Origin: Blastocatellia bacterium
Lineage (GTDB): Bacteria; Acidobacteriota; Blastocatellia; HR10; J050
Direction of reading: 5' to 3'
DNA: 64,000 bases
Assembly (NCBI GenBank): GCA_025054955.1
Contig: JANWZE010000152.1
Span: 1 to 64,000, forward strand
Position numbers and translations under genes: made by a program. This document shows, one piece after another, positions 11,587 through 17,363 of this stretch. The notes beneath the pieces are model-generated. The model saw only the letters and a program-made list of their open reading frames with translations. It did not search any database and was not told the origin of the DNA. Every line of letters starts with the position of its first letter. The stretch's first letter is position 1.

Positions 11587-12894
11587 ATGCCTGTTTCTAT
11601 CCACCAACTCACGCGAAGAAACCTTGACCAGCTTCTCGTCCGACTGCGTCCGCACCGGATCGTGGATCAAGCTGTGCAATCGCGCGTGCGGGTGATCATT
11701 GATGATGTTGCCCGTCGAGGTGACGCAGCATTGCTTCAGTACACGGCTCAGTTCGACGGCGTCGTGTTGCATCCTGAGGAACTGCGCGTTCAAGGGCGTG
11801 AGTTTGACCAGGCTCGGCGTCAGGTCACCGGTGAGCAATTGGCCGCGCTGAAAGTATCGTTGGCCAACATCAGGAAAGTCGAGCAACACAGGTTGGCGCG
11901 ATTGTCAGGTCGGATGCAGACAAGCCCCGGCGTGAGCGTGCGAGCCACCGTTCGACCGCTCAGCAGCGTTGGCTGCTACGTGCCTGGCGGGCGCGCCGTT
12001 TATCCAAGTTCCGTCTTGATGAATGTTGTGCCAGCGCAGGTAGCCGGCGTCAAACGCATCGTGCTGTGCTCGCCGCCGTCGGCAACAAAAACGATTCATC
12101 CACTGATTCTGGTGGCTGCCAAGCTGTGTGGCGTTCATGAAGTCTATCGCGTCGGTGGCGCGCAGGCGATTGCCGCGCTGGCCTTCGGCACGCAGACAAT
12201 CAAACCAGTGCAAAAAATCATCGGACCGGGCAGTGCGTATGTCGCCGCCGCCAAGCTGGCCGTGTCTGATCGTGTGGCGATTGATGCGCCGGCCGGGCCG
12301 AGCGAACTGCTGGTCATTGCTGATGAAACAGCCGACCCGGTCAACGTCGCGGCCGACATGCTCTCTCAGGCGGAACATGGCCATGACAGCATTGTTGGGC
12401 TGGTGACAACCTCATCGAAACTAGCTAAACAGGTTGTGGCGGCGCTCCGTGAACGATTGGATGCAGTGGAGCGGTCGGCAACGATTGCGCAGGCGCTGGC
12501 CCAGAACGGCTTCGTGCTGACTTGCAACAGCATGAAACTGGCCGTCGAGTTCACCAACGGGTTTGCGCCTGAGCATCTGGAGATCATCGCCCGACAGGCT
12601 CACTCGCTTGCCAATGAGATTGAGGCAGCGGGCTTGATCCTGCTTGGCAACTATTCGCCGGTGGCGGCCAGCGATTATGTTGTTGGCTCCAATCACGTCC
12701 TGCCGACGGGCGGCGCAGCAAAAACCTATTCAGGGTTATCCGTCATTGATTTTGTGCGGCGAGTCAACATCGTGCACTGCTCGCGCAAAGGACTCAAGGG
12801 TCTGATGCCGTCACTCAGAGCGCTGGCGCTGGCCGAAGGTCTGCCCAATCATTATCGCGCCGCCGCCGAGCGGTTCAGACACAGAAGGCAGTAG
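11587..12894 (+). CDS. hisD: Histidinol dehydrogenase HisD
   Basis: Last two oxidations of histidine synthesis (histidinol to histidine, NAD- and zinc-dependent). 435 aa from the ATG at 11587, one base after the hisG stop; the frame is open upstream but overlaps hisG and lacks homologous character. Motifs: GCYVPGGRAVYPSSVLM, GGAQAIAALAFGT, GPSELLVIADE, the zinc-site Gln/His of LSQAEHGHDS, FAPEHLEI and SNHVLPTGGAAKTYSGLSV. The C-terminal codons lie in a 25-bp sequence repeated beyond the adjacent restriction module. The final HRRQ and stop are therefore probably module-derived, and the catalytic domain is intact. Confidence 0.95.
   Translation: MPVSIHQLTRRNLDQLLVRLRPHRIVDQAVQSRVRVIIDDVARRGDAALLQYTAQFDGVVLHPEELRVQGREFDQARRQVTGEQLAALKVSLANIRKVEQHRLARLSGRMQTSPGVSVRATVRPLSSVGCYVPGGRAVYPSSVLMNVVPAQVAGVKRIVLCSPPSATKTIHPLILVAAKLCGVHEVYRVGGAQAIAALAFGTQTIKPVQKIIGPGSAYVAAAKLAVSDRVAIDAPAGPSELLVIADETADPVNVAADMLSQAEHGHDSIVGLVTTSSKLAKQVVAALRERLDAVERSATIAQALAQNGFVLTCNSMKLAVEFTNGFAPEHLEIIARQAHSLANEIEAAGLILLGNYSPVAASDYVVGSNHVLPTGGAAKTYSGLSVIDFVRRVNIVHCSRKGLKGLMPSLRALALAEGLPNHYRAAAERFRHRRQ
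12857..12881 (+). repeat. Left 25-bp direct repeat flanking the R-M module
   Basis: The 25 bases beginning GCGCCGCCGCCGAGCGGTTC near the 3' end of hisD are repeated exactly at 16138-16162, just before hisC. The bases on either side of the two copies differ. The copies bracket the restriction-modification genes. Confidence 0.95.
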
Positions 12895-13090
12895 GGAGCA
12901 AACGGGAAGCAGTGGTCAGTAGAATGAGTAACGACGGCGGAGCATGCCAATAAACTCCATTGTCTACTGAATGCCAACTACCGTTAGGTGTTCTATATGA
13001 TCAGCGTAGCTCACAATAGTTGGCGAGAAGTATAGTAAAATGGCAACAGCCTGCTCGGCGGGCGACAAGTCATATTGATATGGAGAACTG

Positions 13091-14149
13091 ATGGCAAACC
13101 CTACCAAAAACTATCGGAGGACATTGGAAGAGCTTGAAGAGGTAGCGTCCAAGTTTTGGCCCGCTGAACTGTCTGAGCTTGAAGCCAAGCTGAGTGTCAT
13201 TCCGTTATTGCTGGAGACGCAGGATCAGTTTATTAGCATCCTCAGCGTGAAAACACCCAACTTGGCCAATTTATTCAGCATTCTAGAAGCTTCAAGCCTG
13301 CCCGCAAATCTGTTTCTCAAGCACCTAGCCATCCTCGCTGACTTTGGTGGCGAACTCCTACAGCGAGTGAGCCGTGAATTTGAGATGCTTTTTCCCGAAG
13401 GCAAATTGAGTTACTACTGGCAAGGGAAGCCACACAGCTATATCTTCCGATCTTTGCCCCGTCCTAAGTTCAGTAACCAAAACCTTCATATTGACGGGAG
13501 GCACCTGCTTGAGCCACACCCTCTGGATGACTTAAAGAGAGACGCTATTGCCTTGCTCCTATTTGGTAGCGCATATAGCGGTGAGCATCAAAAAGTCGCC
13601 GAAGCGTTGGCCAAGTGCGAGATTGGAGATTACCTGGGGAAATCGGACGAACTGGCGAATTTTGTCAAGCAACGGTATCTTTGGGTGAGCCGAATCACCG
13701 GCGGAGCAAAGGCGAATAACTTGGGGCAGTTAGCTCAGAGGTTCGTGGCCGAGTACATAGAGAATAACCTTGGATTAGATCATGTAGAGGTCAGGTCGAG
13801 TGGCCGTATACCGGGAGTCACTCATACAGACCCACTGACCGGGCGTGAAACTTCATTCGACTTGGTTGTGACTAATGGGGCGAGATATGTGGCAGTCGAG
13901 GTCAGTTTCCAAGTAACGACCAATAGCACTATTGAGCGCAAAGCAGGCCAAGCAAAGGGCCGTTATGAGCAAATTGAGAAGGCGGGGCATCGGATAGCGT
14001 ATGTCATTGATGGCGCAGGCAACTTCCAAAGGGAAACTGCAATGAAGACCATGCTTTCACATAGCCACTGTTCAGTAGCCTTCTCTCGTAGCGAGCTGGA
14101 GGTTCTTTGCAATTTTCTGAGAGATTTCTTTGCAGAAGATTCGCAATGA
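13091..14149 (+). CDS. Putative type II restriction endonuclease (PD-(D/E)XK-like)
   Basis: 352-aa protein I cannot assign to a named family. The C-terminal third has the shape of a PD-(D/E)XK nuclease core. Asp257 sits in SFDLVV and, 13 residues later, Glu270 in YVAVEVSFQ. A polar, basic helix follows (NSTIERKAGQAKGRYEQI). The usual Lys of ExK is replaced by Ser272. The N-terminal ~200 residues are mostly helical and may bind DNA. GGAG lies six bases before the ATG. The start codon of an adenine methyltransferase follows nine bases after its stop, which is the main reason to call it the cognate nuclease. Base composition is more AT-rich than the flanking his genes. Confidence 0.65.
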   Translation: MANPTKNYRRTLEELEEVASKFWPAELSELEAKLSVIPLLLETQDQFISILSVKTPNLANLFSILEASSLPANLFLKHLAILADFGGELLQRVSREFEMLFPEGKLSYYWQGKPHSYIFRSLPRPKFSNQNLHIDGRHLLEPHPLDDLKRDAIALLLFGSAYSGEHQKVAEALAKCEIGDYLGKSDELANFVKQRYLWVSRITGGAKANNLGQLAQRFVAEYIENNLGLDHVEVRSSGRIPGVTHTDPLTGRETSFDLVVTNGARYVAVEVSFQVTTNSTIERKAGQAKGRYEQIEKAGHRIAYVIDGAGNFQRETAMKTMLSHSHCSVAFSRSELEVLCNFLRDFFAEDSQ

Positions 14150-14158
14150 GGTTAAGCA

Positions 14159-16099
14159 ATGGCGCATCTTTCAGAAGGTAGTCATCCTCTTGTGGCACAA
14201 TACATCTCTGTCCAGAGCGACGAACACCTGTGCAGTTTGGTGCGTAGGTTCCCTGATGTTTGCATGTTAATACTGCCGCCGTGTGCTGAGCCCGATCAAT
14301 ATCGAAGACCCCTACAAGACATTGGGAGTGTGGTTGCCGGTGTTGCTCAAGAGTTAGGTCCGGATGCAACGCTGATTACCGTAGGTGAAGTTATTGACTT
14401 AGTGCAAGTGCAAGCGGCTATGCCTGCCGCAGTGCGATACCAGCATTGGATAGCCATCAAGCGCGCGTCTCCCAGAAGAGTTGACCAGCGTTCCTTGCCG
14501 AATCATCATTTTGGTGCTTTGATCCACACCAGGTATCAGCAGTCCTTACGCCATACTAAGACCAGGATAAAATACACGTACTGTCCCGCCTGTCATAAGA
14601 CTACGAAGGATTACGGTGGCAAGAAACATACTTACCACGAGTATGGCACGTTAGTGTCAGATGTGTGGCGTGACGTGGTGTGTGATCTGGAAGGCGATCT
14701 CACACCTATCATTGACCGATTTCGAGATCTTTTTGGGATTGATTCTTACAAGGAACTGTTAATCCTCGACTGCCGCCAGAGGGACGTTAAACGAGTGCCA
14801 GCGCAGTACAGTCTAAAGTCTGATTGGAACGCTAGCTTTATTGTCGGGCGAGAGGGCTCCCCTAAATATGAAGCAGCCCAACCTGTGATGTCGCAGTCCC
14901 GCCTTTTTCCCTATGACTTCTCAGACCACATCTATGAAGCCACGGAAAGCAAGTTGCCTGCGCATCTGATGAACCAGGTGTTGCATGGTGACTGCTTGCA
15001 GTGGCTGCGAGAAATTCCGGATGACAGCGTCGACTTTGTCTTTGCCGATCCACCTTACAACCTGGGAAAGAACTATCTGGGTTACTCGGATGACCTAGAG
15101 ATCAGAGAGTACTTCAACTGGTGCGATCAGTGGATTGCTGAGTTGGTCCGTGTCTTAAAACCAGGGCGCACGCTCACACTTCTGAATATCCCCCTCTGGG
15201 CGATCCGGCACTTTCTGTTTATGGATTCAACTCTCCAGTTTCAAAATTGGATTGTTTGGGACGCATTGGCTTTCCCTGTGCGTTTGATAATGCCAGCTCA
15301 TTACACAATTCTGGCGTTTTCTAAGGGGAAGCCCCGCGAGCTACCGGGCTTGATCGGGGAAGCGGATCCGGTAGATGTTCAAAGTGCCCCAGATATGTTC
15401 AAAGCTTTGGAACCACTGGCCGAGGGGTATTGTCTCCGTGCCACATGCGTAAAACGGCGACGAGCTTCACAGGCGACTGACCGCGGACCGCTTACTGATT
15501 TGTGGTGGGATATTCACCGCCTGAAACACAATACTCGCCGTGTAGATCATCCAACTCAACTCCCACCACATCTTATGTACCGGCTGATCGCCATTTTCAC
15601 CAAGCGTGGTGAGGTAGTCCTGGATTGTTTCAATGGAGCGGGAACGACAACTCTCGCTGCTCATCAGATGGAGCGCTGCTACGTCGGAATTGAGAAGTCA
15701 AAAAAGTATTGTGACACGGCGAGGAACCGTCATGAGGAGATATTCAGAGGCCTGAACCCATTTCGTAAAGCATTCCGGGAACTCACTGCCAAGAACAGCC
15801 CTGTCCCACGGCTACCTAAACAGAAATATGAGGTTCCCAAGAAAACATTGCAACTGGAAGTTAAGCGAGTGGCACAGCAGTTGGGGCATCTGCCCAGTCG
15901 TGATGAGCTTGCTCAGTACGGCAAGTTTCCAATCAGGTATTACGATGAGTATTTCATAAGCTGGGGCGAGGTTTGCGCTGCCGCCCGTACTACAGGCATG
16001 ACGGAAGAGTTACCGTCCTCTGTGAATCGCCAATCCTCAGTGTCTGAAACACAATTAAGGCTGAGTTTTGAATTGAACAACCATAGCGATGAAAGGTAG
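14159..16099 (+). CDS. DNA (adenine-N6?) methyltransferase, beta-type motif order
   Basis: 646-aa modification enzyme. The active methyltransferase domain begins near residue 272 (MNQVLHGDCLQWLREIP). The catalytic DPPYNLGKNY is at 297-306, and the SAM-binding FNGAGTTTLAAHQM comes later, near residue 491. Motif IV before motif I is the beta-class order, and DPPY favours N6-adenine. Residues ~35-265 resemble a second, decayed methyltransferase half: LPPC (39-42) sits where DPPY would be, and a CPAC zinc-like motif (142-145) follows. The last ~65 residues (VAQQLGHLPSRDELAQYGKF...SWGEVCAAA) resemble the HNH-associated helical repeat. GAGG precedes the start. It pairs with the nuclease gene upstream as an R-M system. 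Confidence 0.87.
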   Translation: MAHLSEGSHPLVAQYISVQSDEHLCSLVRRFPDVCMLILPPCAEPDQYRRPLQDIGSVVAGVAQELGPDATLITVGEVIDLVQVQAAMPAAVRYQHWIAIKRASPRRVDQRSLPNHHFGALIHTRYQQSLRHTKTRIKYTYCPACHKTTKDYGGKKHTYHEYGTLVSDVWRDVVCDLEGDLTPIIDRFRDLFGIDSYKELLILDCRQRDVKRVPAQYSLKSDWNASFIVGREGSPKYEAAQPVMSQSRLFPYDFSDHIYEATESKLPAHLMNQVLHGDCLQWLREIPDDSVDFVFADPPYNLGKNYLGYSDDLEIREYFNWCDQWIAELVRVLKPGRTLTLLNIPLWAIRHFLFMDSTLQFQNWIVWDALAFPVRLIMPAHYTILAFSKGKPRELPGLIGEADPVDVQSAPDMFKALEPLAEGYCLRATCVKRRRASQATDRGPLTDLWWDIHRLKHNTRRVDHPTQLPPHLMYRLIAIFTKRGEVVLDCFNGAGTTTLAAHQMERCYVGIEKSKKYCDTARNRHEEIFRGLNPFRKAFRELTAKNSPVPRLPKQKYEVPKKTLQLEVKRVAQQLGHLPSRDELAQYGKFPIRYYDEYFISWGEVCAAARTTGMTEELPSSVNRQSSVSETQLRLSFELNNHSDER

Positions 16100-16137
16100 A
16101 AGATGCACCTAATCACAGGCTCAGAGGGCACAGGTTT

Positions 16138-16162
16138 GCGCCGCCGCCGAGCGGTTCAGACA
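16138..16162 (+). repeat. Right 25-bp direct repeat flanking the R-M module
   Basis: Exact copy of 12857-12881 from the end of hisD. Read in the hisD frame, the sequence after this copy stays open (Gln/Arg-rich) to a TAA at 16251-16253, 12 bases before the hisC start. This looks like the original hisD tail or the original intergenic junction. Confidence 0.95.
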
Positions 16163-16265
16163 ACGCCGTCGGCAGACAACCGATACACAACAGAACAAGG
16201 CAGCCGGCAGCCAACAACAACGCAATAAACCACCACGACCGGCTCTGGCCTAACGCCTTGATCAC

Positions 16266-17363
16266 ATGGACGAGAAAGTACGAAAACGACTCCAACAACT
16301 AGAACGGCTCGAAGGCTACGTCATGCCTGACTCCACGCCGCTGGAGGGTCAACCTGCGGCTCCGGCTGACATCATCAAGCTGGACGCCAACGAAAATGTG
16401 TTCCTGACCAAAGACTGGCTGCATGCGTTGGCCATGGAGGTCATTGAAGAATTGGACCCGCGCTTTTACTCGACCCATGAGTATCAGCAACTGGTGCGCG
16501 CCCTGAGCATACGTCACGACATCACCCCGCAGCATATCGTGCTCGGCAACGGCGGCGATCAAATTATTGACTTCGTCGCCAAGACGTTTCTTGATGTTGG
16601 CTCAATAGCTGTGTCTGTTGAGCCGACATACTCTTTCTATCGCCTGCGGGCCAAGTTGGCCGGCGCACAGTATGTCACCGTTCCGCTGAACGATGACTTT
16701 TCGCTGAATGTCAACCGGCTGCTCGACGCGGCCCGCGACGCAAGCATGATGTTGCTGTGCTCGCCCAACAATCCGACAGGCAATCAATTTGCCGCCGAGC
16801 ACCTCAGAGAAGTGTTGCAGGCGTTTGATGGCATCGTGTTTGTGGACGAAGCTTACGCTGACTTCGCCGACGAGAACCTGGTTCACTGGGTCGCCGAGTT
16901 CGAGCATCTGGTGATTTTGCGCACATTCTCGAAGGCGTTTGGCTTAGCCGGGCTGCGGCTCGGATACTTAGTGGCTCATCCGACACTGGCGCGGCCGTTC
17001 GCCGAAAAAATTCAATACCCTTATCCGGTCAGCGCATTCACGCTAGCTCTGGCGTTGAAACTCATGCAACAGATTGACGTTGTCCAAGCCGCCATTGAAC
17101 GCATGAAGAGCGAACGCGCGCGGCTCATCCGAGAGCTGGCATCAATCGAAGGCATCAGCCCATTTCAATCCCAGAGTAACTTCGTGCTCTTCCAACTGGC
17201 ATTGCCAGCAGAGAGGGTTCACAGCCAGCTCATTGACCAAGGCATCTTCTTGAAACATGTGGGCACGGTGTTGGGCATGAACAACTGCCTGCGAACGACA
17301 GTCGGCACGCCGCCAATGAACGATCGGCTCCTAGAAACATTGCGGCGAATCTGTCAGAGTTAG
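16266..17363 (+). CDS. hisC: Histidinol-phosphate aminotransferase HisC
   Basis: PLP enzyme converting imidazole-acetol phosphate and glutamate to histidinol phosphate. 365 aa, normal for the family. Motifs: LDANENVF near the N-terminus, GNGGDQIID (phosphate/PLP loop), SPNNPTGN, VDEAYADF (PLP-ring Asp) and the Schiff-base Lys in RTFSKAFGLAGLRLGY. It is the first his gene after the R-M insertion, so its expression may now depend on transcription through the module. hisB follows after 27 bp. Confidence 0.94.
   Translation: MDEKVRKRLQQLERLEGYVMPDSTPLEGQPAAPADIIKLDANENVFLTKDWLHALAMEVIEELDPRFYSTHEYQQLVRALSIRHDITPQHIVLGNGGDQIIDFVAKTFLDVGSIAVSVEPTYSFYRLRAKLAGAQYVTVPLNDDFSLNVNRLLDAARDASMMLLCSPNNPTGNQFAAEHLREVLQAFDGIVFVDEAYADFADENLVHWVAEFEHLVILRTFSKAFGLAGLRLGYLVAHPTLARPFAEKIQYPYPVSAFTLALALKLMQQIDVVQAAIERMKSERARLIRELASIEGISPFQSQSNFVLFQLALPAERVHSQLIDQGIFLKHVGTVLGMNNCLRTTVGTPPMNDRLLETLRRICQS

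Follow-up and report, generated by a model that had tools for sequence, protein, structure and literature searches.

The 64,000-nucleotide (nt) stretch of Blastocatellia bacterium contig JANWZE010000152.1 analyzed here (the window) contains on its forward strand, at 14159-16099, an open reading frame (ORF) with an ATG start which encodes a two-domain methyltransferase of 646 residues, and the locus raises the question of what such an enzyme does with a first domain which appears to be catalytically dead. In paired adenine methyltransferases the inactive partner could either read the substrate or mainly support the active one, a question which has been studied chiefly in eukaryotic complexes. 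The architecture of the gene is uncommon but conserved: within a BanI-type restriction-modification cassette, a methyltransferase of the beta class contains a pseudo-methyltransferase half of its own (the N-half, which precedes the C-half), and we consider it probable that the product is a one-chain pseudodimer with a division of labour which serves as the modification enzyme of a Type II BanI-family restriction-modification pair. No description of a fused active/inactive bacterial DNA methyltransferase was found in the open-access literature searched.

Fold and ancestry of the two halves

Sequence comparisons were made on a set of 33 rows, the window protein and 32 relatives, drawn from 40 related loci. 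Loci at a contig edge (L007, L034, L035, L037), with a broken frame (L001, L036) or with an internal gap (L040) were left out, as was L023, in which the first match starts from residue 53 though the open frame looks complete; L024 and L039 were included.

A sequence-only reading of the gene had proposed that an active beta-type domain follows a methyltransferase-like first half, and the C-half was readily identified as this domain, with Pfam N6_N4_Mtase covering residues 291-522 at 141 bits (cut-off 26.7). Motif IV (DPPY at 297) comes before motif I (FNGAG at 491), as in the beta class, and both are kept in 33/33 sequences. VIA-align, which re-aligns Foldseek matches, gave Z scores for the C-half of 23.5 with MboIIA, 21.4 with CcrM, 21.1 with a rotifer N4 enzyme and 19.2 with M.RsrI.

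Sequence searches with the N-half were weak or empty. The N-terminal 268 residues of the window protein matched no Pfam family at E ≤ 1, and the protein gave no MT-A70 row at that threshold. The N-halves of the 33 members returned CarbpepA_inh (10/33, best E 0.0091) and N6_N4_Mtase (3/33, best E 0.055), and a PDB sequence search with the N-half profile returned just two ribosomal-protein rows (E 0.13); the kinship of this half to methyltransferases is therefore visible by profile-profile and fold comparison only. An AlphaFold2 model of residues 1-268 was built from the 33-row alignment, with a predicted local distance difference test score (pLDDT) of 80.8 and a predicted template modelling score (pTM) of 0.75. 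Foldseek searches of the PDB with this model gave a best E of 1.3e-5, the 50 matches listed being beta-class DNA enzymes, a rotifer cytosine-N4 methyltransferase and chains of METTL3-METTL14 and MTA1 complexes. With VIA-align the N-half scored Z 11.1 against MboIIA (root-mean-square deviation, rmsd, 4.7; 178 aligned), 10.3 against M.BceJIV and 9.9 against CcrM, and about 7.6-8.0, below the bacterial enzymes, against chains B of METTL3-METTL14 entries, which we take to be METTL14. The profiles of the N-half and C-half also align with each other over 174 columns (hhalign E 3e-6, probability 88).

The predicted fold and the profile-profile alignment together indicate that the N-half shares both the fold and the descent of methyltransferases, and the proposal that it is unrelated to these enzymes was rejected. 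An N-terminal fold unlike Rossmann methyltransferases had been named beforehand as the result which would refute such an assignment; the predicted fold matches beta-class methyltransferases best. The extent first given to this region, residues ~35-265, reached too far, as the MboIIA-aligned range is approximately residues 14-209, similarity stops at about 209 and residues 220-261 are mostly a low-confidence linker (pLDDT <50 at 220-253 and 257-259 in a full-length model). As read from the alignment, the N-half appears to retain the scaffold of motifs IV-VIII, a loop, motif X and the first strand of motif I, with no FxGxG.

The full-length model had a pTM of 0.79, with 109 of 646 residues below pLDDT 50. 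This pTM is higher than we would expect for freely floating halves and was taken as a sign that the halves may be placed relative to each other. The likeness of the tail to an HNH-associated repeat was confirmed by a match to PF18780 HNH_repeat at residues 562-609 (28.5 bits, cut-off 26), found at E ≤ 0.01 in 33/33 sequences, and helices were predicted in the full-length model at 561-575, 581-587, 592-598 and 602-608.

Loss of catalytic motifs and conservation of the N-half

A motif audit found neither (D/N/S)PP(Y/F/W) nor FxGxG in any N-half (0/33 for each). The C-halves all carry DPPY (33/33) and the motif I pattern F-x-G...T (33/33); FxGxG in its strict form was present in 20/21 C-halves sampled, with FNGVA in L030. 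The window has LPPC at residues 39-42 in place of DPPY and CPAC at 142-145, as the sequence-only reading had noted, and the loss of motif IV on which it relied goes further, since FxGxG is gone too. The letters of LPPC are not themselves conserved: position 39 is L in 29/33 and position 40 is P in 28/33, and position 41 is P in 4/33. LPPC as a meaningful conserved remnant was ruled out since positions 41 and 42 vary freely. Its register to DPPY is direct in the MAFFT alignment and one residue off in hhalign, the Asp being gone either way.

A second element of the N-half is held almost without change. C-x2-C-x11-H is present in 33/33 sequences, and twelve columns are invariant (33/33), namely C142, C145, K150, D151, G153, G154, K155, H157, G163, S167, D168 and D172. 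All 12 invariant N-half residues fall within the block 142-172, in sequences whose N-half identity to the window is 20-52%, and this C-x2-C...KDYGGK...SDVWRD block is among the best-conserved parts of the whole protein. The invariant pair C142/C145 may bind a metal. Nei-Gojobori ratios of nonsynonymous to synonymous substitution (dN/dS) in close pairs were 0.055-0.153 for the N-half (6 pairs) and 0.042-0.076 for the C-half (5 pairs, the sixth being saturated), ratios which are rough because dS is high (0.9-2.2). These ratios indicate that the N-half is under purifying selection in close pairs, and together with the highly conserved 142-172 block make it look repurposed rather than decaying. 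To call it decayed, as the sequence-only reading did, is therefore misleading.

A functionless, decayed remnant on its way out would also have lost motif IV and FxGxG from 33/33 N-halves, and at L001, L024 and L039 the N-half has stops or a late start with an open C-half. We nevertheless regard this explanation as very improbable given the N-half dN/dS in the six close pairs, the 12 invariant columns maintained at such low N-half identity, and the recurrence of this N-half type in 13 two-domain proteins (two-domain by definition) from several phylum-wide samples described below.

Single-domain and two-domain relatives

Searches with the N-half profile found single-domain proteins, mostly of 290-420 residues, which have the same Cys pair and KD(Y/W)GG with an intact DPPF. 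In a comparison of 72 domains (21 N-halves, 21 C-halves, 21 single-domain relatives and 9 other beta-class proteins) motif IV was present in 0/21 N-halves, 21/21 C-halves, 20/21 single-domain relatives and 9/9 other beta-class proteins, and KD[YW]GG in 21/21, 0/21, 21/21 and 0/9, respectively; a tenth protein of the last group was left out because it yielded no usable frame. The single-domain enzymes (L133, L140 and L151 among them) resemble the N-half in the Cys pair, KD(Y/W)GG and an SDVW-type block and are nearest to it in the tree, and differ from it in having DPPF (20/21), FxGxG (20/21) and one domain. A maximum-likelihood tree (183 columns, LG+G4; supports counted on the unrooted tree) placed the 21 N-halves in one clade (100). 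The next to join are 8 active-looking KD(Y/W)GG single-domain enzymes (94), followed by the remaining 13 (71). The 21 C-halves formed one clade (100), and all halves and single-domain proteins stood apart from the 9 other beta-class proteins (100).

Four phylum-wide samples of 396, 339, 375 and 372 genomes gave matches in 19, 8, 12 and 13 genomes, which are lower bounds because scoring was limited to the best first-look candidates of each genome. Examination of 60 loci yielded 57 distinct proteins with the pattern, after a duplicate (L143) and two which did not match (L210 and L220) were dropped. Thirteen are two-domain proteins, including the window protein, L038 and the similar pair L214/L215, and none has motif IV in its KD(Y/W)GG half (0/13); motif IV is present in 43/44 single-domain proteins. 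The exception, L138 (415 residues), has DPPR for DPPF with FxGxG intact, and is perhaps a separate loss of activity. The eroded motif varies between two-domain proteins, being APPF in L216, VPPF in L217, FNPEDR/YDPADR/FDPKDK in L129-L131 and LPPC in the window. No two-domain protein with both halves intact was found in the relative sets examined. Such a one-gene version, together with active-looking single-domain enzymes and two-domain proteins in which motif loss has gone to different lengths, could make the role of the dead half accessible in E. coli, and if the N-half is a reader, swaps of this half could change specificity.

The two-domain protein was also sought on mobile elements. A plasmid collection gave 410 matched records and a phage collection 414, none with one place covering 80% of the query; the 30 listed of each start at query residue 172 or later and are thus C-half matches. 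No match was found in viral contigs scanned with the single protein as query. An alignment-based search of IMG/VR (best 80 of 174) showed at least two viral-classed contigs (L041, L042) with a two-domain methyltransferase, a hint of either phage spread or host DNA misplaced among viral contigs.

A BanI-type nuclease partner

The methyltransferase gene starts 9 nt after the end (14149) of an endonuclease gene whose product matches PF24447 RE_BanI at 473.5 bits (cut-off 28) and PADLOC REase_II at E 7.4e-90. A BanI-like ORF lies directly upstream on the same strand in 34/40 loci, that is in 34/37 loci with upstream DNA, at distances from a 23 nt overlap to 107 nt apart; that of L016 is cut by a contig edge, and the distances for L024 (72 nt) and L039 (107 nt) were measured to a shortened frame. 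Six loci have no upstream BanI-like ORF, three of which (L007, L035, L037) start at a contig edge and three of which (L023, L033, L038) lack one. The next downstream gene of L038 matches DpnII (E 0.0072) and RE_BanI (E 0.0086) below cut-off. The neighbouring genes at the other two, with a two-domain methyltransferase and no BanI-like ORF nearby, include those of an AAA_14/DUF4143 protein (L033) and a Bro-N protein (L023). Within the stretches examined no BanI-like ORF was found for the distant two-domain relatives L175-L178; the ORF which follows in L177 has a nuclease-like D-x-K pattern by eye and no significant family-model match.

For annotation, this means that BanI-type nucleases can stand beside an amino-methyltransferase whose first third has no Pfam match better than E 0.009 (33 members). 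In L017, L022, L024, L025 and L039 two or three ORFs make up what would be the BanI-like gene, and the methyltransferase frame is open save for the start regions of L024 and L039. These splits could reflect either a nuclease which was lost first or assembly errors.

A proposed division of labour

Beta-class amino-methyltransferases of known structure are commonly dimers with uneven roles. In the arrangement which we consider probable, two subunits of such a dimer would have been fused into one chain. The N-half has lost its catalytic motif and cofactor loop and kept the scaffold and the C-x2-C...KD(Y/W)GGK...SDVW loop, and the C-half has kept catalysis and cofactor binding and lost KD(Y/W)GG. 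The N-half would pack on the C-half like a second beta-class subunit and would help to recognize the site, replacing the recognition subunit of the dimer, while the HNH-repeat tail may add DNA grip and the C-half would methylate the presumed cleavage site of the BanI-like nuclease. Target recognition or dimerisation, the roles suggested for the N-half by the sequence-only reading, are its best-supported ones. Computation shows the fold, the kinship of the halves, which motifs are lost or kept, the purifying selection and the pairing with the nuclease gene; the geometry between the halves, reading of DNA by the N-half, any bound metal, and the target base and site are inferred.

Precedents for such an arrangement were found in several systems. 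In EcoP15I, as described in PMC4490356, one Mod subunit reads DNA via a domain inserted between motif blocks and the other methylates, a 'division of labour' which the authors suggested also for METTL3-METTL14. The recognition domain of this Type III Mod lies between the IV-VIII and the X, I-III motif blocks (PMC4490356). The N-half loop sits where EcoP15I has this domain and the C-half is without the loop. A fused pair with fixed roles, in which the N-half would be reader or support, the C-half writer and the tail a grip, is the simplest reading. EcoP15I differs in that its subunits are identical and each has DPPY, and in its helicase-nuclease partner, whereas in the protein described here the asymmetry is written into the sequence and a BanI-type gene is the neighbour; no Type III Res stands next to the methyltransferase, the preceding gene being the BanI-type nuclease and the other neighbours being read as his genes.

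The METTL3-METTL14 and ciliate MTA1-MTA9 complexes likewise pair an active domain, which has motif IV and binds the cofactor, with an eroded, cofactor-free domain of the same fold, and their inactive partner supports substrate binding, as proposed here for the N-half. The eroded motif is EPPL in METTL14 (PMC4490356) and NALW in MTA9, and MTA1-MTA9 pairs are described as active with an eroded subunit (PMC9852454), which is comparable to the motif loss of the N-half. In contrast to the single ORF at 14159-16099, these are two chains, and the N-half has also lost part of the cofactor loop and adjoins a restriction enzyme gene. In bacteria, METTL3/METTL14 homologues are described as sporadic, for example in Anabaena (PMC8868631). 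A one-chain precedent is given by PRMT7, in which active and inactive methyltransferase domains form a pseudodimer and the inactive one is needed for activity (PMC10908127); the tandem arrangement is alike, but PRMT7 methylates arginine in proteins and belongs to another family. The C-half is of the same class and fold as CcrM, M.RsrI and M.MboIIA, which unlike the protein described here are dimers of identical complete domains. The CcrM dimer has uneven roles, and its DNA-binding domain, separate and at the C-terminus, acts in trans (PMC6787082); the tail here is also separate and C-terminal, and is an HNH_repeat whereas that of CcrM is SAND-like.

A stronger version, which we put forward tentatively as having somewhat less than an even chance, is that this is a bacterial one-chain counterpart of METTL3-METTL14, a fixed reader-writer monomer passed among phyla in restriction-modification cassettes, whose N-half would be left with the recognition loop alone and whose C-half with catalysis alone. 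In its boldest form, a putative shared Cys4 metal site formed by C142/C145 of the N-half and C425/C430 of the C-half would lock the halves together.

The N-half could instead be a structural or regulatory appendage (for stability, allostery or nuclease contact), with chains which homodimerise via C-halves responsible for recognition as well as catalysis. The main role described for METTL14 and DNMT3L is to regulate their active partners (PMC10908127), nothing of a beta-class domain is missing from the C-half, and the adjoining BanI-like ORF in 34/37 loci with upstream DNA makes nuclease contact possible. Against such an appendage, the 12 invariant N-half residues are confined to the block 142-172 and not spread over the scaffold, the C-halves are without the KD(Y/W)GG loop, and the distant two-domain proteins L129-L132, without a nearby BanI-type match, keep the same N-half type. 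We consider it rather unlikely, if the most serious of the alternatives. Another activity of the N-half, such as binding of methylated DNA or RNA, or sensing, unrelated to restriction-site recognition, seemed to us quite improbable. The complex of MTA9 binds DNA less well when charged residues of MTA9 are mutated, as described in PMC9852454, so inactive halves can bind nucleic acid in general, and the Cys pair and basic GGKKH loop would suit such binding; however, cofactor sensing is unlikely with no FxGxG, and the tight link to a restriction enzyme gene favours a role in site modification.

Several observations weigh against a one-chain pseudodimer in which the N-half is the reader. In CcrM it is the catalytic subunit which reads the target strand, so that recognition by the N-half is not a necessity. 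The fold match of the N-half is real but loose, with Foldseek TM by query of 0.29-0.46 and large rmsd among the 50 matches listed, the hhalign probability for the two halves is 88 and not near 100, and the node uniting all N-halves and single-domain proteins apart from the C-halves has a support of 71 only (183 columns). The profile used to recruit single-domain proteins and N-halves contains KDYGG, and its presence in them is partly ascertainment; this bias touches neither the retention or loss of motif IV nor the lack of KD(Y/W)GG in C-halves. The sign of packing of the N-half on the C-half is a pTM for the whole chain, and the KDYGGKKH stretch has low confidence in both the N-half model and the full model, so that the model shows no contact of this stretch with DNA or with the C-half. 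Finally, some loci carry lesions: the N-halves of L001 and L024 each have an in-frame stop, the open frame of L039 starts only after about residue 35, and L040 has a gap from about residue 140 to 419. By title all four are metagenome assemblies, in which assembly error is possible.

Target base and site

DPPY with the beta order of motifs is common among N6-adenine enzymes. N4-cytosine methylation would also be compatible with it, as the C-half has the rotifer N4 enzyme as one of its best fold matches (Z 21.1). BanI cuts GGYRCC and its partner M.BanI is a cytosine-C5 methyltransferase; the endonuclease of the window is of the BanI family, but its methyltransferase is an amino-methyltransferase. 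The variants of GGYRCC share no common adenine, so that if the partner cuts GGYRCC the methyltransferase should make N4-methylcytosine, and if it makes N6-methyladenine the site must differ from GGYRCC.

In a 347 kb sample of the window's own genome (loci L155-L174 and the window) GGYRCC was observed 656 times versus 888 expected (0.74), and many palindromes were avoided more. The 40 loci were pooled and analyzed with a different (order-2) expectation and 66 words tested. GGCGCC was second lowest (128 versus 362 expected) after CAGCTG; GGTACC was found 40 times versus 129 expected and GGCACC/GGTGCC 99 versus 192. As many palindromes are similarly low, no conclusion on the site was drawn from avoidance. 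On both strands of the 347 kb, CAGCTG occurred 14 times versus 227 expected, ATCGAT 6 versus 166 and GTCGAC 4 versus 73, a strong avoidance which perhaps stems from other restriction systems.

Features and genomic setting

Coordinates of the pair and of the elements discussed above are collected in Table 1.

Table 1. Positions in the window of the methyltransferase, its parts and its nuclease partner.
Feature	Coordinates	Strand	Evidence or remark
BanI-family Type II restriction endonuclease, 352 aa, methyltransferase partner	13091..14149	+	PF24447 RE_BanI
Two-domain methyltransferase, whole gene	14159..16099	+	646 aa; 40 related loci among genome contigs
N-half, residues 1-215, predicted catalytically dead beta-class methyltransferase half	14159..14803	+	fold, hhalign, motif audit
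LPPC, residues 39-42, at place of catalytic motif IV (DPPY/DPPF)	14273..14284	+	alignment, motif audit
C-x2-C-x4-KDYGGKKH-...-SDVWRD element, residues 142-172	14582..14674	+	between motifs VIII and X; 12 invariant residues
Linker, residues 216-270, variable length, mostly low confidence	14804..14968	+	model pLDDT, alignment
C-half, residues 271-530, predicted active beta-class amino-methyltransferase	14969..15748	+	Pfam N6_N4_Mtase, fold
Motif IV DPPY, residues 297-300	15047..15058	+	33/33 sequences
C-half Cys pair C425-x4-C430, near place of N-half Cys pair	15431..15448	+	33/33
Motif I D-C-F-N-G-A-G-T-T-T, residues 489-498	15623..15652	+	motif audit
Helical C-terminal tail, residues 556-617	15824..16009	+	PF18780 HNH_repeat 562-609

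The pair lies within positions 12895-16265, between genes read as hisD (which ends at 12894) and hisC (which starts at 16266). In two genomes of the same family (G001, G002), matches to hisD- and hisC-like proteins lie 2 nt apart on one contig. The GC content of the nuclease and methyltransferase genes is 0.49-0.50 versus 0.557 for the window, and given this lower GC and the close flank-gene matches in the two genomes the restriction-modification pair looks like a recent insertion between his genes. The longest exact direct repeat common to the flanks is 8 nt and is probably due to chance.

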